From: Siniperca chuatsi
Lineage: Eukaryota; Chordata; Actinopteri; Centrarchiformes; Sinipercidae
Direction of reading: 5' to 3'
Length of the DNA: 64,000 nt
NCBI RefSeq assembly: GCF_020085105.1
Contig: NC_058063.1
Location: 17,268,262 to 17,332,261, forward strand
Notes under the pieces: generated by a model
Told to the model about the DNA's origin: nothing
Database searches by the model: none
The model's input: the letters and a program-made list of their open reading frames with translations, nothing else
Translations under genes and position numbers: made by a program
Part shown: one piece after another, positions 6,412-62,788 of the stretch
Layout of the letters: every line of letters begins with the position of its first letter
How positions within the stretch are numbered: position 1 is the stretch's first letter

Positions 6412-6878
6412 TTACTTGTTGTTGTCTTTAATCTCTTGCTTGACTGAAACTAGTCCTGACATCCTCCAGGAGATCTTGAAATCACTGATTCCCTTGTTTT
6501 TCATCTCTTTCTCCAGCTAGGAAGCATACACAAAAATAAGTCTTCACATTTATTATAACGTTAATAATTAGCAGCTTGGGTATTATTTGCAATGAAACTA
6601 TTAATTACTAATCGCTTCATTGCAACTACTAACACTGCTACAGCAGTGTGGTAATCAGCACTTTCTATAAATGAAATGTTGAGTAGAGTTAAATAGAGTT
6701 GAATTAGTTTTACCTTCCACTCCGTGCCCTCACACAGGGCATACTTTACGAATGCACATATGAAACAATATTTCAGTAAAATGTGTGTTTCTCACCTGGC
6801 TCAAGATTTGTTGTTGGATGGCCAGGTCATTCATGTCAAAGTCAGTCTTGATTGTCACTACAGATCTCTTCTTGAAGT
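6412..6878 (-). other. C-terminal tail module of the chimeric lectin
   Basis: Exon 6878-6796 (83 nt, phase 1 to 0) encodes FKKRSVVTIKTD and on to ILSQ. Exon 6516-6412 encodes LEKEMKNKGISDFKISWRM and ends in NNK then TAA (6414-6412). The same two-exon module closes the other lectin genes here (19054-18764 and 33619-33274), with the pattern of a basic strand, an acidic/Asn-rich turn and a helix ending KxW. I do not know its function. The charged, amphipathic make-up argues against a membrane anchor. Confidence 0.8.
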
Positions 6879-9800
6879 CTGAAAAATGGATGCTCATGTG
6901 ACTGATCTGCTGATGGCATTTTGGCAGCGTTATGAAATGTTATAATTTACCATACCATTTGATGTTTTAGTCAATTGACTACAAATTGCAGCTATAAGAA
7001 ACATCGCTATTGACAGTTATTTAAAGCATAAAGTCAGCTTTAGGATAAATTTTCCATCCTCCAGGCAGCCATTGGTTCAGGTTCAATACACTATGAAAAT
7101 TAATTAACTTAATTTTTCAAAAATGTAAACAACAAAAATCTGGGTACCTGGCAATTTGAATCCAATTCATATAGCTAAAACTGCTTTTAATTTGGATGCT
7201 GGGTAGAGGGCAACAATGAATAACAGACTGAAAATAAAATGCTGTATGTCAATAGTTTTATAATGTGGAGTAGAGCTGCAGCTAATTATTATTGTTCATT
7301 ATTAGTTAATCTAACAATATTGTTTTCAATTAACTGATTAATCATTTAGTCTACAAAAAAATTACATGACACAAGTTACATTTTCCCAGAGCCCAAGCGT
7401 GACGTCTTCAAATTCCTGCTTTTTTTAACCAACATATCAACCAAAGATATTTACTCAACAATGATGTCAAACAGAGAAAAGCATCAAATAATCAGATTTG
7501 AAGAGCTTGAATCAGCAAATGTTAAGCACTAATGTAAAGCTTACATAAACTTGTATAACACTTACAGTAGCAAAGAAACATAGATTTGGTGTCGCAGGAT
7601 CTTACGTTCCATTTCCTGTTGTAAACATAAGCACAGTTCAGACCCTCTCCTAAGCTGTCCAGTGACCCTTGCCACTGGTGTCTGAACAAGGAGTTACTCC
7701 CATCGGACCACTTCCAAGAGTCTCTGAACAGGCCAATCCAGGCCAGCTTTCCTATCGGGACCATGCTCTGGATGTCCTGGTTCTCAGCCTGGTTCCTCAC
7801 ACTGAGCAGGTCTGTGTGGTGCTCCCTGCAGTAGCGCTGAGCGTCGGCCCAGTTCATTGGTGTTTCCACGAGAATCTTTGTTTCTGGTGCGCCATCTCTG
7901 CCTGTGACCACAGAAATAATCATCATGATGCACCAGTACATACTGCAAATGTAATTTTTTTAAAACGGGGGGTTTGGGTTGTTTAACCCGAGACAGCATT
8001 TGCTTATTGGCACTGCACACTGATTTTGTGCTTTATTTGATCGAAATTTGTCATGGGCAAGAGAGCCCTTGAACTGACATCAGCAGTTCTGCAAGATAAT
8101 ATAAATTTAAGTAACTCAACTTACTTAAAACAATATCTCAAGTCCCACATTTTCACACGTTGCTTTTTATAATGAAATAAATGAAAAGCAATGGCTACCT
8201 GGAAGGAAAGAACGATGAGCTTTGGAAAGTGGTTGATGATATTTATAAGCCATCCACAATTTGTAGTTAATAGTATAAAACATGCAAAAGCAGGTTAGTT
8301 TTTCCTGAGACCAGCTCATCAACCACAGATACTTTGTTAACACATGTGAATAATAGTTACCATCAAAGCATAAGAAGTAGTTAAGTAAGTCACAGTCCAG
8401 GTCTCCCCATTCACCCATGTGTTGTATGTTAGCACAGTGCTGGATGGTATTCTCGTTGTTGGGTTCACTAACACCCCAGTTCCTGAACTCCGCTTCACCG
8501 TCTCCATAGTAACCCTCATCTGACAGAGACCACCGCCAGTTTATGACATCTTGATACAGCCCAATCCAAAAGTCAGAGAAGTCATTCTCCATTTTGTCAA
8601 CGACCCTGTTCATGTCGTGATTGTTGTTGATGGTGGCCAGGTCAGTGTACCTCTCTCTACAGTAGGTCTGGGCTTCAAACCATGTTTTAGGTTCATTGTG
8701 AATGAGAATGTAGTCACGGCTGCAGGAAGCTAAGGAGCAGTAATCTGTTGATAGAAAAAAGAAAATTCAACAATAACTTTATTTGTGAATGGATGATGTA
8801 GCTATGAAGGACTGGTCTGAATGCCTGTTGCAAGTCTCTACAATCAGGCTTGATTAAATCACTAAAAGATCAAAGTCAATATCAATCTGGAAAAGCATTC
8901 TGCTTAAAAAGAACTGAGAGCATTGAGAGCAATTATTCAGCATTACTGTGGTATTTATAAAGGTGATAAAAGTAAAATCTTTAATTTGAAATAGCAATTT
9001 GCATTTATGAATGGAAAATACATCATCAGCATATAAACAGGGACTATTGTCTTAACAAGACAATAATGTAAATGACAGTATCATCTACAAATATGAAGGC
9101 CCTTCTATTTCTGGTTGGAATTTTGCATTGTAAGGATTTCGTAAAACTGCATAATCTGTTTACCATTGGGTGGGGGCCACTGAGGGACTATGTTCTGAGG
9201 ATTCTCCCAAGTGCTGTAGACCTCCACCTCACACAGAGGCGGTGGTATGTCGGGATGGATCACAGTCACATAGCGACCCACAATCCCACCACAATCCAGG
9301 GTCATCAGAGATTGTGCACTGGAGCTGATCGTACATCTGAAATAGAGATAAAGACACAGAGAAGGTGTACATGGCATTTCTTTATTTACCTTTAAACTTG
9401 ATTTATTTTGTCATCCATTCATTTAAAAATATTTACGCTATTATCTATGCTCTTGGAACTCGACTATCTACCAGAGACCCAGAGCTGACTTTAATAAAAT
9501 TCTCAAAATTATGAGATAATGGATAAAGTTACCAACAGGCCAAACTCCCAAAGTATTTGTAGTCTTTTACACCTAGTAGTGTAGTCTAGATATGCACCAA
9601 GTGACTTTCCCTTCCCCTCTTCTCCCTATTTTTAAGTTGGGAGAATTTTTAAAACACCAGAAAATGTTCTGCATGTTTATTGATCCCACTCTCACTATGA
9701 CATGACTGTGACATTGTCATTTCTTTCCAAAAATGTTACAAATCACCGTGACATCATTGAAACTGTGATCTTATGTTACAGCACAATGGTTAGGTTTTGG

Positions 9801-12800
9801 TTTGGTTTATGCAAAAAAAAAAAATGACTTGGTTAAGTTTAGGGAAAGATCGTGGTCATGGTCATTAGCAAACAGGAAGTGAACAGCGTTCTCCCATGTC
9901 AAAGTCCCATGTTTCGTTTGGCTATCCATCCACCTCGACCTCCTCCCTCTGCAGACTTTGTTACTCTATGACAACGTCACACTATTTCCTCCTTTGCTCC
10001 TGACAGACAAGAGTCATGAATCCTACGGCCACTAGAGAGCTTTGTCACTTGAAGGTAAACATTTTTTGGGCATTTGCTGCAACGACTGATACTGTAGTTT
10101 TCCTTGGAAGGACAGTCTCCACTTTCAACATGCATTCCTCCAACCTTGTCCGACCGTATATTTACCTTGTGTCATCCACTCGGACCTCATCACCATAGCA
10201 GCAGTTCTCACTGAAGGCAAGCTGGATCACAGTCACATTGTAGGGAACCAATAGATCCACTGTCACCCACTGACCGGGTTTGTCTTCAGTTATGCTGCAG
10301 GTGGAAAACTGACCATCAATAACTCTGCTGGCTTGACCTGTGGTTTTCGACCTTAGGGAAGACTGAAAAGCCACTCCTCTCAAAGCCACATTTTCTAGTG
10401 AGGATGAAGGTGTTAAAAAAGTTGAATTAGAAAATGATTTTGCAGGTGGGTTTTTTTTGCAAAAAAACACCTGCAAAATCATCTTTTACAGGCAGAAATA
10501 TAACAAAGGCTTCTGTTTAATGCTAATTAAACAATGGGGTTTAGAGGTGTAAGAGAAGTCCACAAAGCCATTGGTGTAAACTTATAATGGAAGAAAGTAG
10601 ACAATTAATAGTTTTGATGTTGTTAGAAAATTCTAAACAATACAAAAACTGAACTGAAATTGACTTTGAGGTTTTACATTGTTGCTATTTTACGCAGCTT
10701 GAGACTGTAGTGAAAGCTGAAAACCAAAGTTGGAAATACTACTGTAAAGTGTAGTTTTGTGTTTTCTTTAAGGCAGACTAAACATGAATCTTATCCAATT
10801 CCAGGCTTTCAGCAACACATGCAAAGTAAGTAAGGGATTTGTAGCTTGGTTTGCACATTTGCATCTTGTGTATTTGAGTGGTTACACTTAAAAGGTTATG
10901 TTTCTTCCTTAAAGAGTAACTTAACAGCAGGCTAAAAAGCTCTGTTTTGCTGCCTGTTTGAAGCCTGTTTCACCCCTGGTTGGTGGTTGGTTACCACACC
11001 CAACAGTTAAACCACTGGAGGTCAGGAAAGACAACATTTTCAGGGGGTGTTAAGGTACTCTTTCATCAACACCTTTAAAGGGATGTACAGTGTGTGCTTA
11101 CTAACTGTTTTGCAGGACACGCTACCATGTTGAGAAGATGAAAACATGTATCTCCTCATTTATATTATATTATTACAATGTTACCATGTACCTGAAACAG
11201 TCAGCAAGGGAAAAAATTAGAACTTTTTGTTGTCATTTTTTTTGTCATGACTTTTGTTTTTCCAATATGGCATACCCAATGCATACAGTGAAAGGCTAAG
11301 CTCCCATAGGCAGAACACTCTGTAATAGAAACATATTTTTATTCTTCAGGAAAATGTTCATTCTTCATGTGTGTGGAGCTTACCAAGCACAGCACCATAC
11401 ACCTTTACTTCACAAACAGTCAATTTCTTATGTAGTCCAGGAAGAACAACATGGACGAAGCGACCTTCCATTATTCCACACTGGTAGTTGTATATGCGCT
11501 GTCCCGCTGCAATGGAGATGATGGCACACCTGACAGAAGGAAGAATATAAGTAAGAAAAAAAAGAGAATCAAAGTGGCTGGTAAGTACAAGTACTACTAC
11601 AGCAAGTAAGTACTCTTTTGTTCCTGCTAATATTACCTCTGGTTGCTGTTGTCATTCCTGAGGCCGATGCGGACCTCAGCACGGTTCAGCTCCTCTGAGC
11701 AGCAGTCACCGATGCTGATGATAGACACAGCAGTTATGCGGTAGATACTCCTCAGGTCCAGTTGCCACCAGGGGTTGTCTTGCAGTGGGACTGAGGCACA
11801 GGTTTCTAGTGGATAGTCATCATTGGCCATATGTGGAGCAGTTGCTGCAGAAGCCGGTTCTGCAGACTGAGTGGCGACTCCTCTCAGTGCCACGTTAGCT
11901 GACAGGAGTGTCATGAAGACAGTTATGAAGAAATGAATGAGAAAGAACCAGTTATGGATTAATTTGGAAAACCACAGCATTAAGTATTCCCTGTCAAACT
12001 TGGCCAGTTTGACAGGGAATACTTAAAGCTTTAAAAGTTTGATAATTAGGCCTGCTAAGGCATGTTTATGACAGGTTATGTTTTCTGGTTAATGTCAAGT
12101 TGTCATGACAAAGACATCTCAAACAATGTCAACTTTGCATCAAAAGTGACATATTTGACTGAATGACACTTAATGACAACAGTCATAAACCTTCATAAAG
12201 ACTCCTTCATGTTTATGACAGGTGTCATGTCACGGTTATGACGGTGTCATGTCAGTCTTATGAAGCCACCTTCATAAGACTTCAAATAAAGTGTTACCAT
12301 CAATTTAAATGCCAAAGAAATCCTTAGCGCTCACAGCCTGGAAACTAGCTGAGCACAAAATAACTTCTGAATTGAGCAGAAAGGTGAACGTAGACAGACC
12401 TTATTCTTCACTGAAGATGTTTTGTAACTCTAAATATCAATAACACTAAACAATATTGTGTCAATTTCTACCTCATTATGTTCACACAGGAACCACTGCA
12501 TAATAGAATCAACTATGCCATTTCCCAGTGTTGCGTTACCTCCTGTAATGTCAGTAGTGGCGTACACTTTGATCTCACAAAGCTGAAGTGTCTTTTGTAC
12601 TCCAGGGATGAAAATGTTGACATAACGTCCTTCCATCCCACTGCAGCTGAAGGCCATGGGAATGACATTGGTCTCAGTTATGACAGCACATCTGAGGGGC
12701 AAATAGACAGATGGTACAGGAAAAAAACAAAACTATTGATATACAGTATATATTGATACATTCCTACCTCCACAAAATGGTAGTTCATGCAGATTTGTCG

Positions 12801-15800
12801 GCATGCATACAATTATCATGAAAACTAACATGAAGAAGCAGGATATACGGTAATATAAGGTACAGCTGAATGCAGCAGCCCAGCCATAATATTAAGTACT
12901 GTATTATACTATTTATATAGTACAATAATATATAATACAAAGTTATATATTATTACTCAACATATTACATTATATTCCATGTCAGTGTAAGGTATATTAG
13001 CTTGTATCATATTACTCTTACACTTAGATATAAATTCAATATTGAATTGCAAATTGTATATAAATTATAATAGAATAACTGTAATATAATATCTCATATG
13101 CAATCCTCTATCCTACTACACTATGATGTCTAATATACTATCACAATACTGTGTCACACTGGTTAAAGAAGATATTGCAATATTGGTTTAAGGTGCAACA
13201 CTGGTCATGAGTACTTATAAATTGCATGTATGGTTTTAATTTTTTAATTTCTAGTCTTATTTTTTTATTAATATTATTTTACTTTACTGCTTATTAATTA
13301 TTTCTTACTTTTTATTTAATTATCTGTACTTTGTGCTGCTGCAACACAACAACAATCTTATCTTATCGTGAAGAAGTGTTGATTCAACTCTTTGGGCATT
13401 TTGGAAGCTGCAGTTGTCCACCCCAAAATATTCAAAACATCTTTCAGTGTAAGAAAAAAATTCAGGAGCACCACAAACTACAGACCACAGAGTTGAACAC
13501 CTCTCTGATCAAGTATCTCCATCTCCATAAATCAAGGATTTATTAGATTCACTTTCACAAGGCGTACATTGGCAAGTTAGTATCTGGAAAAATGAGGAAT
13601 GGACATTTTGATTTAAGTATATGTGGAGGTTTTTTTTATATCTATTGAAATTTCAGCACGCTGTCATTCATTAGCCTAGCCTGTTTTCCCTAGTTTAGGG
13701 GTGTCCAAACTATGGCCTGCAGACCATGTATGACCTGACATCTGAATTTATATGGCCCAAGAGTAAATTAGTTAATTTTATAAGCCTACAAGCGAGCGGG
13801 TGGTTCTTGTGCGTACTATGAAATATAATCCTGCCGGGGCACCACTGGTATGACATGCAACAAAGGCTGCAACCACGTGGCCATGTGGGATGCGCTGTAA
13901 CCATTTGGTATGCACGTGCATGTGTACAGTAGACCTACTCTCCCACCACCAAAAAATAGGGATCATGAACACTGGGTAAAGGCATGAAAAGTTTGGACAC
14001 CCCTGTTCTAGTTGGAAAAATTACCGAGCTAATCAGAGCTTTGCATATAGGATTAAGAATGGGGATGTCATTTTCCTGTGCAAAAAAATGGCCACAAAAG
14101 TGGTGAAAGCATAGATGAGATCAACGCAGCTGTACATGCTGTTGAAAGTCAACTTACAGAAGTAAAAACTCTTAAGACAGCATATTTCTTTGAACAACAG
14201 GAAAAATGTGAAAAGCTCCTAGCAACTGCTCCCACATCCATGTCAGCTGAAAATGACATTGGTAGGATCACCTGCTACTGATTGGTTAGGTCAAATCTAA
14301 AGAAGTAGCCCCACCCAAACTGAAAATATCTAACATGAACACAATGTCAGTGTGAATAATGGGGTGAAAACAAAATGGCAATTCAGTCTAGTTTAACCCA
14401 TTAAATCACCTGGGATTGTTGTTGCCATTGTTCTCCACTGAGTTACCAATGCGGATTTCAGCCCCATTAAGCCGCTTAAAGCAGCAATCTGTTCTTCGGA
14501 TGATTTCAATGAATGAGATGTTGTACGGACCCCGCATGTCCAATCTCCACCAGGGGTTGTCCTCCGTCTGACTGTGAGCGCAGCTCATAGACGCCCAGTG
14601 TGAATCATCTCTGCCATCAATTGCCACGTTTGCTGGATGCCAGGGGTCCAACAATGAAGACTGAACAGCCACTCCACCCAGAGCCACATTAGCTGGAGAG
14701 TTGGGACAGTGAAGATTATAGATAATCAAATACATGTTTGCAGTGCAAAATATGTAAAACATCTACAGAGGAAAGCACTTGATGAGAAGCTTAAACATGC
14801 TGTAAAATTAAAGGAGGAAAATCTATTTTATAAAAACTACAAAATATGTAGCTTATTAAGTCAATCGGACATGTTCTTTAATTGTTCATTAAACCTAATA
14901 ATCCAAACAAGCAAATTAACAAAATGTTTTCCCGTCTCACCTGCAGATGTTTTTACCTGTTTTCTCTTCTTGTAACAAACTTCCTTTTTCTCCTTTAACA
15001 AACTTACCCAGTCAGTTTCACAGTCAAACCAGCCAAAGTATGAAAGTATGATTGAAAATCAGTGGGGGCTATATTCCCAAATTATTTATCATTATATCAA
15101 ATGTTTTCAGTACTTTCCAGCAGTAATAATTCCTACTGATATAATTAATTTAATTAATACAACCTGGACAGAAAATCGATTCAAAACCTAATTTTAGTAT
15201 ATACGTGTATAATGTCTTCCAGCAGCCCATGATTACATGCAAAAAAAAAGACATTTAAGCGGTAAAACGTAGTTTTTAATTCTAATGCCTTTTTTTTTAC
15301 GAAACTAAATTAAATGCTTTTTAAGATTTTTCAAGACATGCAGATATTCTGAATAACTGTTTGAGGTCCAGAGAGGTTAAATTATTTCACAAAAAAGAAC
15401 ATTAGAAAAAAGTCCACAATAAATAAAAATAGATTTATATTTATAAAAACTTTTTTTTTCTTCTTTCCTACCCTATTAATCATCTCAGGACCCATTAGAT
15501 TTATTTGTGACCCTTTGAAGGGGCCCCGGTCCCTAGGTTGAGAACTGGACTAAACTAACTAAAGTATTTAACTGTATAAAGTAGTTAAAATGTGTTCCAC
15601 CTGGACAAACTACAACTGTAAAATGCCGCTTGCACATTGATCATATTAACAATCTAATGTCACATAAAAATAATAAACTACTTATCTTACCTAAATCACT
15701 TTTCTTACCTGCCTGGTGAGTAATCCTCAAACTGAGAAGGACAGACCCTGCAAATAGAGTTTAACATTGACATGAAACTCATTCAATACACACTTACTCT

Positions 15801-16090
15801 CAAGTGAGCTTGCAGACTCTGTCAGTTCTTACCATTTTGTAGTCAGTTTGCTTGTGGCTTGAAAATACATTTTAGTTTTAAAAATGTGGCCCACTGTATG
15901 ACAAAATCTAATATATTAATTTAGGAAAAAATAAATTCAAGGACTTCTTCACCATCTAGGATTTAATCTATAAATGAGCCATACAGAATAAAATTTTCTC
16001 CTAATAAAGTAAAAGAGTGTTAATTTTAAACACATGTATATCATTATATGACTTACCCCAAATAAAAATGAATTTCCAACTCCACTCCAT
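6412..16090 (-). CDS. Chimeric lectin: 3 F-type + 2 C-type domains
   Basis: Twelve coding exons join in one frame of 741 codons: 16090-16057, 15747-15709, 14692-14410, 12691-12540, 11898-11637, 11529-11384, 10394-10166, 9336-9164, 8744-8361, 7901-7566, 6878-6796 and 6516-6412. All have GT/AG borders and matching phases. The order is a split signal peptide (residues 1-24), F-type lectin domains at 25-169, 170-305 and 306-439, CTLDs at 440-567 and 568-679, and a 62-residue tail. There is no transmembrane helix, so the product should be secreted. F-type lectins bind fucose, and EPN-type CTLDs bind mannose- or fucose-type sugars with calcium; a role in glycan recognition is inferred. The start is the only Met exon with a hydrophobic N-terminus and a phase-1 donor. 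Each F-type domain is two exons (phase 1-2-1) and each CTLD is one. It could instead be two adjacent genes, but no signal exon or stop separates the domains. Confidence 0.85.
7268..7520. repeat. Dispersed 'GAGCTGCAGCTAATTATTATT' class element
   Basis: A short non-coding element widespread in percomorph fish. It starts GAGCTGCAGCTAATTATT, passes through CCCAGAGCCCAAG.GTGACGTC and ends AGCTTGAATCAGCAAAT. Other copies or fragments in this window are near 21718-22035 (reverse), 39690-39905, 50815-51060 and 51590-51930. This copy lies in the intron between the second CTLD and the tail of the chimeric lectin. Confidence 0.6.
7566..8744 (-). other. Two CTLDs of the chimeric lectin
   Basis: Exon 8744-8361 (residues 440-567) is a long-form CTLD with an extra N-terminal Cys pair, then TYCRERYTDLAT, WIGLYQD, EPN at 533-535 and WGD where WND is usual. 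EPN marks the mannose/fucose class, although the WGD change may weaken calcium site 2. Exon 7901-7566 (residues 568-679) is a short-form CTLD with RYCREHHTDLLSV, WIGLFRD and WSDG. The QPDN/EPN position reads SLDS and WND reads WNV, so calcium-dependent sugar binding is unlikely there. Both exons run from phase 1 to phase 1. Confidence 0.87.
9164..10394 (-). other. F-type lectin domain 3 (shortened, motif lost)
   Basis: Exons 10394-10166 and 9336-9164 encode residues 306-439. The first exon is 229 nt, against 283 and 262 nt in domains 1 and 2. It begins NVALRGVAFQSS, keeps the vicinal cysteines (NCC) and ends CEVEVY. The usual NPWW block reads PGQW. The His, Arg, Asp and Arg of the fucose motif are Ile, Ser, Asn and Asp. 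Its last codon is split with the first CTLD exon (G + AT), which is the junction that fuses the two lectin families. Confidence 0.82.
10434..10482. repeat. Hairpin with 15-base arms
   Basis: Positions 10434-10448 and 10468-10482 are exact reverse complements (ATGATTTTGCAGGTG and its complement). A T-rich then A-rich spacer can extend the stem. It lies just upstream of the third F-type domain exon, in an intron. Confidence 0.8.
11384..11898 (-). other. F-type lectin domain 2 (motif lost)
   Basis: Exons 11898-11637 and 11529-11384 encode residues 170-305. The fold landmarks NVALRGVATQS, DNPWWQLD, DCC, AEVRIG and CEVKVY are present. At the positions of the sugar-binding His, first Arg and second Arg this domain has Ser, Ile and Glu; only the Asp is kept. 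It should fold but is not expected to bind fucose in the known way. Confidence 0.85.
11981..12025. repeat. Near-perfect hairpin, 20-base arms
   Basis: Positions 11981-12000 and 12006-12025 are exact reverse complements around a five-base TGGCC spacer. The hairpin lies just upstream (minus sense) of the second F-type domain, inside an intron of the chimeric lectin gene. A dispersed element follows immediately (about 12040-12300). Confidence 0.85.
12040..12300. repeat. Dispersed TTATGA/CATAA-rich element
   Basis: This stretch repeats short motifs such as GTTTATGACAGG and CTTCATAAGAC and ends AAATAAAGTGTTACC. I recognise this as a common short interspersed element of fish. It sits in the intron between F-type domains 1 and 2 and has no coding content. 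Confidence 0.5.
12540..14692 (-). other. F-type lectin domain 1 (intact fucose motif)
   Basis: Exons 14692-14410 and 12691-12540 encode residues 25-169. Family landmarks are NVALGGVA at the start, DNPWWRLD, the adjacent cysteines DCC, LNGAEIRIG, and CEIKVY at the end. The F-type sugar-binding signature His-X26-Arg-X-Asp-X4-Arg is complete, with His64, Arg91, Asp93 and Arg98. This domain is therefore predicted to bind alpha-L-fucose. It is the only one of the three that keeps the full motif. Confidence 0.88.
15709..16090 (-). other. Split signal peptide exons of chimeric lectin
   Basis: Two tiny exons encode the leader. Exon 1 (16090-16057, 34 nt) gives MEWSWKFIFIW plus one base before GTAAGT. 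Exon 2 (15747-15709, 39 nt, phase 1 to 1) adds SVLLSLRITHQA between CAG and GTAAG. Joined, they form a 24-residue leader with a basic/aromatic start and a hydrophobic core, and the next exon begins ANVALGG, a typical mature F-type lectin start. Neither exon is detectable by ORF length. The splice signals and phase fit are what support them. Confidence 0.75.
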
Positions 16091-28937: not shown

Positions 28938-29810
28938 TTAGAATCGAGCCTGTGTGATAGGTTCAAGGTTCACCTGCCCAGCCTCCATCTGCTGTGGAGC
29001 TTCTTCTTCTTCTTCTTCCCTCCAGGTCACCCAGCACAGATATCCATCTGCTACCAGACGTAGGTTTGTCAAACACATGAAAATGTCATAGAGCTGTCCA
29101 GAAATGGGATCATTATTAATGATCATGCAATCATACACAAAACTAGGACAGTAAGTTGCACCAAAGGAGACAAAGGCTACCTTAATAACTTGGCCTGAGC
29201 GCATGTCCATACTTCTTAAGGAGCAGAAGGCTTGAACAATTATAACCAAAGTCAGAGTCATGGCCACAGCACCCAAAGCCACAGCAGCTTCGGTAACCTC
29301 AAAGAAAAGTATGCAGATGAGATCCAACGTGAGGACGACAGACAGGGACCAATGGAGCGGCAGAATTTGAGTTTCCTCACGCGACTGCTTCCAGATCAGG
29401 ATGAACTCCAGCGCCACCAAGAGGTGGAGAAGCACTCCGCATCGTCTGGACGCGAACCACACAACCAACAGTTTATAACAATATTTCAAAGAGCATGTGG
29501 AACCCACCAGCTCCATCGCCACCACGGGTGTGGACAGTGATTGGAGGAGGCCGGTAAAGATCAAAGACACCTTGAACACTGTGAGGTGTCGGGTGTTGAT
29601 TTTTTTGCAGAACATAGCAAATATGAAGAGAATTAATTCAAGGACACCAAAGAACAGGCCACCCAGGAGAACACCAAGAGCCGCATTGTTCCCAAAGAGG
29701 GCTCTGTCACCGGCGAGGACACCTGAGTCCCACCGCTGAGTGATGCTGCGAAGGCGGCTGTTCTCCATGCTGAGGCTGCCCACACCATCAAGAGCTAAAG
29801 ATTCATTCAT
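28938..29810 (-). CDS. Single-exon seven-transmembrane GPCR-like protein
   Basis: An uninterrupted 290-codon frame. Seven hydrophobic segments can be placed at about residues 44-68, 78-100, 111-140, 152-172, 175-197, 207-231 and 240-262. The N-terminus is short with an N-glycosylation site (NES at 2-4), and the C-terminal tail has a run of Glu after the last helix. Features that recall rhodopsin-like receptors are Cys106/Cys111 before helix 3, LLVALEFIL at the end of helix 3 where many receptors have ALERY/DRY, Cys-Pro in helix 6, and NLRLVADGYLCW in helix 7 in place of NPxxY. The DRY arginine is missing, so signalling by the standard mechanism is doubtful. The ligand and family are unknown to me. 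It lies between two lectin genes on the same strand and shows no sequence relation to them. Confidence 0.55.
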   Translation of the reverse strand: MNESLALDGVGSLSMENSRLRSITQRWDSGVLAGDRALFGNNAALGVLLGGLFFGVLELILFIFAMFCKKINTRHLTVFKVSLIFTGLLQSLSTPVVAMELVGSTCSLKYCYKLLVVWFASRRCGVLLHLLVALEFILIWKQSREETQILPLHWSLSVVLTLDLICILFFEVTEAAVALGAVAMTLTLVIIVQAFCSLRSMDMRSGQVIKVAFVSFGATYCPSFVYDCMIINNDPISGQLYDIFMCLTNLRLVADGYLCWVTWREEEEEEAPQQMEAGQVNLEPITQARF

Positions 29811-30185
29811 TCTTAATTTCTTGCTTGTTTTCTTTGAACAAAGAAAAATTTGTCAATTAGTAAAAACATCTGTTATATCACAACAACTACAACCATACAT
29901 ACAACAAAAAAGCGTGACAAAAACACAAGAGCAATACAAGTTCAAGATATACAATTGGTTTGGAAACCAACAATCATCTTATGTCTAGTCAAGACGAAAA
30001 AGTAGTATTCGGATCTTTCAGTTAAGTAAAAGTAGCAATACTATGGAAGCAAATAATGGCCATACTGATTGGAATCTTATAAGCAAGCGAATACCTAATT
30101 TTGACATTTTATCGCTACTGAATACTTCTAGTTAAAATTTAAATACCACTGAATTCATAGCACTGAGATATTCAGTTTGAAAACC

Positions 30186-41164: not shown

Positions 41165-56114
<14,950 letters not shown>

Positions 56115-58847: not shown

Positions 58848-61800
58848 TTATGTGACGGTGGTGGAGTTCTGCCCTCGGATGGAACACCAGGCCATGAACA
58901 CATCTCTGTGGAGGAGAAAAGATAAAAGATTAAAAGATAATTTCCTGTCTACTTTAGTCAATTTCTGACATGTCATACTGTATGCAGGGTGTAATGTTTG
59001 GACAGGATGATAAGTTTATTAATTGCACATTTCACTGGGTACATTTACAAGCACATTAATATCCCAGTTTTGACTCTTATCCTTGTTTTACTCATTTTCA
59101 GGATATAATGTTTACAAGAAACATTTAGCTCCCTGTATGTGTGATTCTAACAGTATTTAGGGGTTTAAACGTCTATATTCAGGATGTTACCAGTGTCAGA
59201 CTCTCACTTTCAACTTGCTGTGCATATTGCTGTTTTTGCACACACCTGCAGTGTGTGGCGACACACTCGTTGCTACAGTACTCCTTGTCCCAGTCTTTGC
59301 TCTCCACAGCGGGGTTGGTGCAGCCAGCACGCACACAGATGTTACGGCTGGCGGTGGGAGTCACGCTCGGGACGGGGGCAACGTTCACCTCAACCTCCAT
59401 CTGAGAGACAAAGCAAGACAAAAGACAAATACAGACATTTAAATTCAAGGTATTTATCTAACTGTCCGCTTCAGAGCTACATACAATAAATGCAACAGTG
59501 GTTTAATATAAAATACAGGCATCGACAGGTCAAAATATTAATATATTGTATATAATATATAGTGCCAAATGAAACAGTATGAGTGTAAGTATGTGTTGAT
59601 GAGCCTACCCCTTCCTCTACCTCTGCCACTTCCTCTCCTCCCGTCACCACATCCGCCGACTGTCCCACCTCCACCGTCAGACCGGTTGACATTGACGCGG
59701 GCGTTTCAGCAGATGACGTCACAATGATTGGCGTGCTTGAATCCGACTGCCGTGACGATGGGACGACCTTGATCTGCAGCGGAGGCGGAGCTGTGGTAGC
59801 ACCTCGTGGTTTGGCCTGCAGAGGTGGAGGGGCCTGGGCGTGCACCATCTGCTGCAGCCGAGGCGGAGGAGGGGTGCTCTGCATCTGCTGCAGCGGCGGC
59901 GGCTGACGCGACGAGGAGGCGGGTGTCGCTGTCACGGATACGCCACCAGAGGGCAACTGTGTCTGCTTGATGATGATCTTGGTGACAGTGGGGGGGGTTT
60001 GGGGGATGGTAACGGGCAGAAGTTGGGGTTTGATGGCGCCGGTGCGGGAACGTGTGGTGACCTGAGGTAGGTCCAGGATGATGTTGGAGGTACAGATGTT
60101 GGTGATGGTGTTCTCCTCTGGGTTGTAATGCTGTGACCTGGTGGAGCGAGCGGCTAGGGTGGCGGCAGGCGTGGCTGTGACAACGGGGGCCGGGGCTGGA
60201 GATGGGGGTGATGGAGAGGTGTCCATGACTTCAATAGGGGCCTGAAGAGACGATGTTTGGACACAATAAAGACGTACAAGAACAGAACATGTTAGAACGT
60301 GTCATCTGCTATTATGAAGACTGCAGATGAGATTACATGCTTATTGATGATGTTTTGATCCGATGTGGATGTTTGCCTGGTGTAGATGGTGTCTAGAGTG
60401 ACTTTTACTGGTGTCTGCGGTTTACTACCAACCGTAGCAATGTAATATGCACCCCTGACTTTACAATGTGGAACATCAGTAAGCATAAATACAAATTACC
60501 ATCTGTTTTTTTTTTAATATATAAATCTAAAAAATACGATAAAAACATTTTCTCAATAAGAAAATTAGAAACTTCGATATACTGTCGATACGTTATAGTT
60601 TAAGATTGCTAGACAATCTACTAAAAACTAATCACATTCAAATAAAGCTATTTCCAACCAATCAAACTCTTTTAGGAGTGCGCTTCCCAAAAACAGGCAC
60701 AGCAGGGTTGGTTGCGTTTGCTAAACACACCACATGCTGTAGTTTAGGTATTGAAAGTCGGATTAGACGGGAGAGACGAGCACTCGCACAGTAAACTTGT
60801 CACAACAACGTTAAACATAAAGAGATGTTGTAGATAAACAAGACTTTGGTGGTGTGGTGATACTTTGGCTTCTTAAAGCCCCGTTTGGCCACAAAGTGGA
60901 TGAGACAGTCCGAAACAGGGACACAAAACAGATTAGCCACCGCAGAAGGGAAACACCACAAACCATCCAATAAAGCATGCAGGGTGCAAGTGCGCAATCT
61001 CAAACACCAGCAATTAGACCCATCCCCTGGAACGAGCAGCGAGGCACTCTGATAAACCTGTTACTATATGCTTTTTCCTTGTGAATAGACACATCACACA
61101 TGCTGTTGTGTTGCTTTTTGTAAATGGCAAAATACACAGTGCCAATTAGCATGATTTAAAATGAGGGATTTGAACTGATATAGACCCAAGATATAGGCTA
61201 AGCCTTTCACACGGCTGGATTTATAATCACAAGATTGAAGATTTTTATGTAATTTATTTACATAGGTTTGCAGCTCATACAATTTTTGTTAATTTTTCAG
61301 GGTCTGAATCTACCACTGGGCAATTTCAAGCTTAAGTGAATCTTTTAGCTTAACAGAAGTAATGACTAAATCATGATGTATATCGATAGACCGATAAAAA
61401 ATTATCACAATAAAAATGTTTTGCCATATCACCCAGCCCTAACACGTAATTGCAATTCTGATCATTTGTAATCGAACATGTAGCTGACCACTTCAAAAGA
61501 TTGTTTTCTTTCATGCAACTACATACTGTGTCATAACAGCTGTCAATTTTTTTTTAAATGGTACATCTCTCGTCAATCAGAGGCACTCACCTGAGAAAGA
61601 TGGCTGGCTCTGTACTCTGCCAGCGCCTTCAAGTAATCCTTCTTCGCCGCTTCGTTTTTCCTCTTGTAAACCTGAAAAAAAGGGGATAAATTATGCTCTG
61701 ACATTAAGATTGTGTTTAAATCTCACCACGTATTATTGAGCCCATGTCTGCTTTCATACAGCTGAGTGAGAGAGGACATCTTCACATCTTCACTTCCATG

Positions 61801-62272
61801 GCTGAAAACATCTTTTTTTGCACAGTTTGTTATGAATGTCCCAAATCTTGTTTTGTCTAATTACAACACTCCTGTAGGATGAGAAAGACAGATTCCAGGT
61901 TTTCCGTGACTGCAAAAATCCTGGTAAGAGTTTCCTCCGTTTTCCTCTCACCTGTTTCTGCTCCTCCCCCAGGCTGTCCCACATGGAGGCCACTATCTTA
62001 GAAACTTCTCCAAATGTAGCGTTGGGATTTTGTCCCTTAATAGCTGCCTGTGTGTCCCTGAAGAACAAAGCGTAGGCGGACACAGGTTTCTGGGGCTCAT
62101 TGGGGTCTTTCTTCTTCTTCCCCTTCTTCCCTCCTCCCACTCCTCCTTTCCGTCCAACAGCTGGAGAGACGCTGGAGGCGGGGGCAGAGAGCGGGGAGTC
62201 GGACAGAGAGGGATCGAGAGAGATGACTCCGGGAGAGACCGCCAGGGAGACCGGAGATTCAACCAGGACGCT
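58848..62272 (-). CDS. tox4: TOX4 HMG-box protein, 3' exons (5' partial)
   Basis: Five coding exons, 415 codons plus stop, in frame: 62272-61952, 61671-61591, 60241-59609, 59400-59246 and 58905-58848. The first holds a Ser/Pro-rich segment, a basic linker ([18 protein letters not shown]) and most of the HMG box ([28 protein letters not shown]). The second finishes the box ([20 protein letters not shown]). The third is long and Pro/Gln/Thr-rich ([19 protein letters not shown]). The last two carry the conserved C-terminal Cys motif ([21 protein letters not shown]) and end TTVT then TAA. TOX4 binds DNA and is a subunit of the PNUTS-TOX4-WDR82-PP1 phosphatase complex in the nucleus. The acidic N-terminal exons are not in the 1.7 kb to the right and must lie beyond the window. 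SUPT16H is its neighbour here and in mammals. Confidence 0.95.
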
Positions 62273-62788
62273 CTGATTAGAGGGGAAGACGCGTGTTAGA
62301 ATAAATAATAAACAGTATTTCTAAATACTGTTCTTTCTCTTTCTATCCTGCTTACATGATGAAGTATTGAGAAAAATCTCCTGCTTCTTAAACTAAATAA
62401 ACTTTTTTTTGTTTTTAAACCCAGACGTATCTGAAAAATGCACTGTAACAAAGTTGAAAACTTGGCTTTTTAGCAAATGAAAAGTTCTCTTGGAGATACA
62501 TGTTTTTCACAGGACAGTAATGGTACACTAAGGTGTAAATTCTTATTTAATCTTAACATATATTGCTGAGCATGCATGCTCTTTTTAAAGCACAAAAGCA
62601 CTACATAACACATACATTTATTTCGTACGTTTCTTTCCCATGTTGGTGTTATGTCCAGCAATTTGAAATATAAACCAAAAAGATAACAGTATTTTGTCAA
62701 TCCTTTTGTGATATTTCTTACTTCTGTACAAATGTACACCATGTAAGTCATGCCAAATTAGCTAGGAGCAGTTCCTGTTTGCACCGTA

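Follow-up and report, generated by a model that had tools for sequence, protein, structure and literature searches.

Gene model and domain content

The window analyzed here is a 64,000-nucleotide stretch of the Siniperca chuatsi genome (C22:17268262-17332261) that contains no N bases. On its minus strand, from 16090 to 6412, lies a gene that joins three F-type lectin domains (F1, F2 and F3) to two C-type lectin domains (CTLD1 and CTLD2). At the level of the DNA, this hybrid gene is confirmed. The exon borders used were those of an earlier reading made from the letters alone (hereafter the sequence-only reading). Splicing at these borders unites 12 exons in a 741-residue frame that extends from an ATG at 16090, through a split signal peptide, to a TAA. 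All introns (11/11) have GT..AG borders and all phases are compatible, and the model stands as it was drawn.

Exon 1 (16057..16090) codes for the first half of the signal peptide; its ATG is flanked by A at -3 and G at +4, and its phase 1 donor is GTAAGT. The second half, GSVLLSLRITHQA, is supplied by exon 2 (15709..15747). Each F-type domain occupies two exons: F1 is coded by exons 3 (14410..14692) and 4 (12540..12691), F2 by exons 5 (11637..11898) and 6 (11384..11529), and F3, the first half of which is shortened, by exons 7 (10166..10394) and 8 (9164..9336). The 3' part of exon 8 (9164..9215) codes for a proline-rich linker, STWENPQNIVPQWPPPN, between the F-type and C-type halves. Intron 8 (8745..9163; 419 nt) joins the two lectin families. 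CTLD1 and CTLD2 are single exons (exon 9, 8361..8744, and exon 10, 7566..7901, respectively), and the C-terminal tail is split between exon 11 (6796..6878), which is common to a dual-CTLD neighbor described below, and exon 12 (6412..6516), which contains the TAA stop.

The three-plus-two domain count of the sequence-only reading was borne out by Pfam. When the whole protein was scanned, PF22633 was matched in three stretches (E=2e-39) and PF00059 in two (E=4.8e-32), both far beyond chance, and each of the five domains passed its own Pfam cut-off when scanned singly (PF22633 scores for F1, F2 and F3 alone: 64.4, 47.0 and 35.3 bits vs. a cut-off of 27.8). The best match among solved structures was striped bass FBP32 (3cqo; E=1.9e-71), followed by the eel lectin 1k12 and then by the CTLDs of the mannose receptor and L-selectin. 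No transmembrane-like stretch was found beyond residue 40; the best 19-residue mean was 1.36 (in F3), and that of the tail region was 0.26.

At the joint (9164|8744), exon 8 ends in phase 1 with G and exon 9 begins with AT, which together make the Asp codon that had been predicted. It had also been claimed that neither a stop nor a second leader separates the two families, and this holds: the frame continues, and a scan of the 419-nt intron 8 for phase-1 leader exons, in which any stop-free stretch of 30 nt or more from an ATG to a phase-1 donor was accepted regardless of hydrophobicity, returned no candidates. The same thresholdless scan recovered the leaders of both neighboring CTLD genes as well as the hybrid gene's own exon 1.

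Sugar-site motifs

F1 carries the His/Arg/Arg fucose triad (H...RTDCCFKR in exon 3) and contiguous cysteines, with a spacing of 26 that is the same as that of the aligned eel lectin 1k12; Vasta 2017 (PMC5712786) gives the motif as His ... R.D....R/K with a spacing of 24. At the aligned triad places, F2 has Ser, Ile and Glu, and F3 also lacks the triad. Thus, the fucose motif is retained in one of the three F-type domains, and the contiguous Cys pair is retained in all three. The cation motif, described as hhDGx with x being N, D or S (PMC5712786), keeps its DG but not its x in F1 (AIDGR) and F3 (VIDGQ), and F2 is without DG at that place. All three F-type domains are split by a phase 2 intron before a Cys, at the aligned place of eel Glu123-Cys124, which is the turn at which an intron splitting the F-type domain has been reported (PMC5712786).

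The EPN motif is present in CTLD1. Where carbohydrate-recognition domain 4 of the mannose receptor (MRC1) has Glu and the Asn of WND, CTLD1 has Gln and Gly in the alignment; its WND reads WGD. Glu and Asn at these places are the usual calcium-site ligands in CTLDs. CTLD2 contains neither EPN/QPD nor WND. The sequence-only reading had credited one soluble molecule with both fucose and EPN-type sugar recognition; this idea is weakened, as the fucose motif is kept in F1 but gone from F2 and F3, CTLD1 has EPN but altered ligands, and CTLD2 has no motifs. As judged from these residues, sugar binding by the hybrid protein is only partly supported.

Losses of this kind would also be expected of a decaying chimera, i.e. 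a gene whose frame is intact but whose product no longer works as a lectin and which is heading toward the state of the nearby broken CTLD copies. Such copies flank the gene on both sides, and the strong divergence of F3 (branch in the F-type tree of 2.56 as drawn and 2.86 as listed) likewise speaks for decay and counts against a working hybrid lectin. Yet the 12 exons are open and have GT/AG borders, F1 has a full fucose motif, and the contiguous Cys pair survives in every F-type domain; decay is accordingly held to be quite unlikely.

A second gene of the same plan and other F-type genes

The 718.8-Mb genome was searched with PF22633, which gave 18 matches. Three of these, near 16.90 Mb of C22 and on its plus strand, are followed by a CTLD match. 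The gene modeled there (gene 2; C22:16899866-16907155) has 11 exons, 625 residues and GT/AG borders at 10 of 10 introns, and it ends 367,518 bases from the hybrid gene. Its leader is split and its exon 1 is 34 nt long, as in the hybrid gene. Three Pfam-confirmed F-type domains of two exons each follow. The proline-rich linker, VPDVVTSPPPTAPPPPTVS, is coded after the joining intron and precedes one CTLD in two exons. The fucose motif is found in F2 and F3 of gene 2; its CTLD, examined by eye, has neither EPN nor WND. Common to both hybrid genes, then, is a pattern in which F-type sites are kept and CTLD sites are weakened. Reading F3 of gene 2 beyond its donor meets no stop for about 58 codons. 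Gene 2, being a splice model, joint included, and having one leader-like candidate in its joining intron, lends the hybrid plan strong but not decisive support.

A cluster of three binary F-type lectin genes is located at C9:4398626-4418063, and each of these ends in CEVEVYGSRLD-stop. Their leaders, chosen by eye among 5, 10 and 4 rows of the scan, would each be contained in a single exon. In a single-domain F-type gene near C9:18.98 Mb, the stop comes 14 residues after CEVEV. All four of these other F-type genes therefore stop within 14 residues of the last CEVEV, whereas F3 of the hybrid gene reads on. The C9 stretches that were retrieved gave no CTLD match. Among the six F-type loci examined (a set that leaves out five weak PF22633 matches, on C18, C19, C12, C1 and C13, plus a weak C13 match of a further search), both of the three-domain loci continue into a CTLD. 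A search for relatives of F1 in viral contigs gave three pattern matches, none of which was confirmed.

Neighboring CTLD genes and window context

F-type matches at E<=0.01 in the window are confined to the hybrid gene's own exons. The strand of the hybrid gene has further CTLD matches at 24.4-22.0, 36.0-34.5 and 2.3-1.4 kb. The neighbor at 26583-18723 (minus strand) has an intact frame comprising its own leader, CTLD1, CTLD2, a Thr-rich exon and a two-exon tail; its leader exon splices in phase 1 straight to the CTLD1 exon, which is the counterpart of exon 9 of the hybrid gene. The CTLD half of the hybrid protein aligns with this neighbor from CTLD1 into the tail (score 548), with only its first 9 and last 17 residues lying outside. 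Among these four domains, each CTLD of the hybrid is best matched by its positional counterpart (CTLD1, 45/118; CTLD2, 51/113). In a genome-wide CTLD search, 90 candidates were scored and 62 of them matched at E<=0.001. The best-scored match to CTLD1 elsewhere in the genome, on C21 and at 46%, belongs to a dual-CTLD gene with its own leader and with EPN and WND intact in CTLD1.

The window also contains a broken dual-CTLD gene at 35964-33270 on the minus strand (leader at 37367-37334), with an in-frame TAA in CTLD1, Thr-rich exons and a tail. By eye, its CTLD2 lies in two exons, with the intron after WIGLYR, which is the same place as in the CTLD of gene 2. Downstream of the hybrid gene, a decayed CTLD copy (2348-660, minus strand) has a recognizable tail exon, KTKRTVVRVKISSEVNLSLPTVSDSLLKQ. 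On a larger scale, many dual-CTLD-like matches are spread over C22 from 14.99 to 17.61 Mb; this expanded lectin region contains both hybrid genes.

The minus strand has other features as well. Exons matching the FACT subunit SPT16 (PF08644, PF24824 and PF00557, with PF14826 below the cut-off) and an HMG-box exon were located at 46570-54939 and 61793-62320; these are usable as synteny anchors. A 304-codon open frame at 28941-29852 without a Pfam match has several hydrophobic stretches and is probably a multi-pass membrane protein.

One gene or two

That a single gene spans both halves, as the sequence-only reading had argued, accords with the lack of a leader or stop at the joint, with the identity of the CTLD1 exon as the counterpart of the neighbor's post-leader exon, and with the similarly built gene 2 model. 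The alternative is that an F-type lectin gene and a dual-CTLD lectin gene lie side by side and that the computed splice fits by chance. Each family does exist alone in this genome, one AATAAA (at 8783) and one TATAAA occur within the 419-nt interval, and a hydrophobic leader candidate occurs in the corresponding interval of gene 2. The earlier statement that the joint is free of a poly(A) signal was thus wrong. The AATAAA at 8783 nevertheless has little weight, because the introns of the hybrid gene hold 11 such hexamers in 7,453 nt (about 0.15 per 100 nt), and it was not taken to prove that there are two genes.

The leader scans also bear on this question. With a hydrophobicity threshold of 1.2 and a GTRA donor, the interval 16056-8745 gave 10 candidates, compared to a mean of 3.1 (range 0-8) in 30 block shuffles. 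However, 8 of them overlap with coding exons of the F-type part, and the other 2 begin at 11037 in intron 6. It is the thresholdless scan that counts, because the thresholded one would miss the hybrid gene's own exon 1 (0.8), and by the former intron 8 is empty where known leaders are recovered. Also, F3 has 19 further codons when it is read beyond its donor, and a phase-1 splice carries the frame onward. Given the missing leader in intron 8 and the model of gene 2, the separate-gene reading was judged unlikely.

A different alternative accepts the fusion gene but holds that polyadenylation within the intron after exon 6 makes a short F1-F2 lectin its main product and leaves the full hybrid as a minor one. 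When exon 6 is read beyond its donor, an in-frame stop is met after 8 codons, 13 residues after CEVKV, the place where ordinary F-type genes end; an AATAAA (at 11343) is located 41 nt beyond the donor. A two-domain, FBP32-like product is possible for these reasons. On the other hand, an AATAAA near some donor is not unexpected with 11 of them in the gene's introns, and exons 7-12 retain an open frame and domain structure. A small chance is assigned to a predominantly short product.

The intron 8 signals and the exon 6 readthrough weigh against a single hybrid product, and several other observations fall on the same side. The donor of intron 8 agrees with the consensus at 6 of 9 positions, the same as the donors of introns 4, 5 and 6. 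In gene 2, the intron between F3 and the CTLD contains five phase-1 ATG candidates, including a strongly hydrophobic one, such that a separate CTLD start is possible there. (This leader-like candidate, at C22:16905258-16905306, has a weak GTGCTG donor and is partly a pyrimidine tract.) The two joints differ as well. In the hybrid gene the linker is coded before the joining intron; gene 2 codes its linker after that intron and has a single CTLD, which is split by an intron. Finally, a tree of 13 F-type domains from the genome (2 of 10 inner branches starred) did not resolve the relation of the hybrid genes. Given this tree, the side of the intron on which the linker lies, and the number and intron structure of the CTLDs, either one fusion or two may underlie the C22 hybrid genes.

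Favored explanation and significance

On balance, we consider it likely that the locus is one secreted hybrid lectin gene in which three F-type domains are joined to a dual-CTLD part. Such a gene would have been formed when a three-domain F-type lectin and a soluble fish dual-CTLD gene became connected at a phase-1 exon border, with the loss of the CTLD part's own leader and with an F-type part that lacks a terminal stop. The signal peptide, split over two exons, would direct the product into the secretory path. At the N-terminus, F1 is predicted to bind fucosylated glycans via its canonical His/Arg/Arg triad, and F2 and F3 may serve as spacers or as surfaces for assembly. Together, both CTLDs and the tail would make up a second, C-terminal arm, the canonical calcium/sugar site of which appears to be largely lost; this arm would more likely bind protein, bind sugar weakly or aid oligomerization. 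Most likely, we infer, the product is a secreted lectin for fucose that uses its CTLD arm in assembly or for a non-classical ligand.

A broader proposal, put forward tentatively and with somewhat more doubt than confidence, is that the two C22 genes represent a distinct family of soluble fish hybrid lectins, the two ends of which recognize different ligands, one of them fucose. The CTLD arm may then predate the split of the C22 genes, or it may have been gained twice, independently, from local dual-CTLD genes.

The sequence-only reading had called the three-plus-two combination unfamiliar. In the literature searched (mostly titles and abstract openings), no named protein with this F-type/C-type arrangement was found, but an association of the two domain types in teleosts is already in print. 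Vasta 2017 (PMC5712786) lists C-type lectins as one of the lectin types found together with F-type domains and, citing the Bishnoi 2015 survey, mentions CTLDs associated with F-type domains in teleosts; the architecture is unstated in the available part of that source. Gene finders have been reported both to split and to merge such genes, in the case of Fugu CTLDs (PMC514892), and for this reason the class of hybrid lectins may be under-counted. If the gene is transcribed as modeled, two families of secreted fish lectins have been joined at an ordinary phase-1 exon border, and both parent types persist in the same genome along with a second hybrid for comparison. It could then be asked whether paired innate-immune lectin domains add a second specificity or only a scaffold.

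Comparison with known systems

Members of the mannose receptor family have Cys-rich and fibronectin type II domains, eight or more CTLDs and a transmembrane anchor. The hybrid protein, in contrast, has no Pfam match to the Cys-rich or fibronectin type II domains, only two CTLDs and no transmembrane-like stretch. The predicted Fugu DEC-205-FUSE (PMC514892) resembles the hybrid gene in that CTLDs and an FA58C (F5/8 type C) domain are found in one fish gene. However, it has about 2000 residues and some 15 CTLDs, arranged as two groups that are separated by LCCL and FA58C; further, its FA58C has a related fold but not the F-type motif.

Chimeras of F-type domains with another lectin domain include Drosophila CG9095/furrowed, Xenopus PXN-FBPL, a Hydra protein with F-type and C-type lectin domains and the teleost combination of the same two (PMC5712786). 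As far as they are described there, the fly proteins differ from the hybrid in having CCP domains and a predicted membrane segment, and the Xenopus chimera uses a pentraxin. Gene 2 is closer, sharing with the hybrid gene the split leader, the 34-nt first exon, three F-type domains, a proline-rich linker and a CTLD. It is unlike the hybrid gene in its single, intron-split CTLD, in a short end in place of the tail, in having the fucose motif in F2 and F3 and not in F1, and in its less clean joint.

On the F-type side, the hybrid protein has the domains of the teleost binary F-type lectins, typified by striped bass FBP32 (3cqo), and its F1 keeps their fucose motif. In MsaFBP32, the domain is coded by two exons that are cut at the turn before a conserved Cys (PMC5712786), the same arrangement as in the hybrid gene. 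Compared to the binary lectins, the hybrid has three domains instead of two, no terminal stop after them, a split leader and an added CTLD half. On the C-type side, the nearest counterpart is the soluble dual-CTLD group 'F1' of fish (Zelensky and Gready 2004, PMC514892), which has two CTLDs and no transmembrane-like stretch, as does the hybrid; the Fugu soluble group is described as having two or three CTLDs. The intact neighbor and the C21 gene fit the group. Where at least one CTLD in such a protein would carry calcium/sugar residues, the hybrid offers CTLD1 with EPN but with Gln and Gly at two further ligand places. Relative to this group, the definition of which was partly inferred from the neighbor, the hybrid gene has no leader adjoining CTLD1 and has three F-type domains in that place. 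The Thr-rich exon of the neighbor is absent from the hybrid gene, but the two genes are alike in their single-exon CTLDs and two-exon tail.

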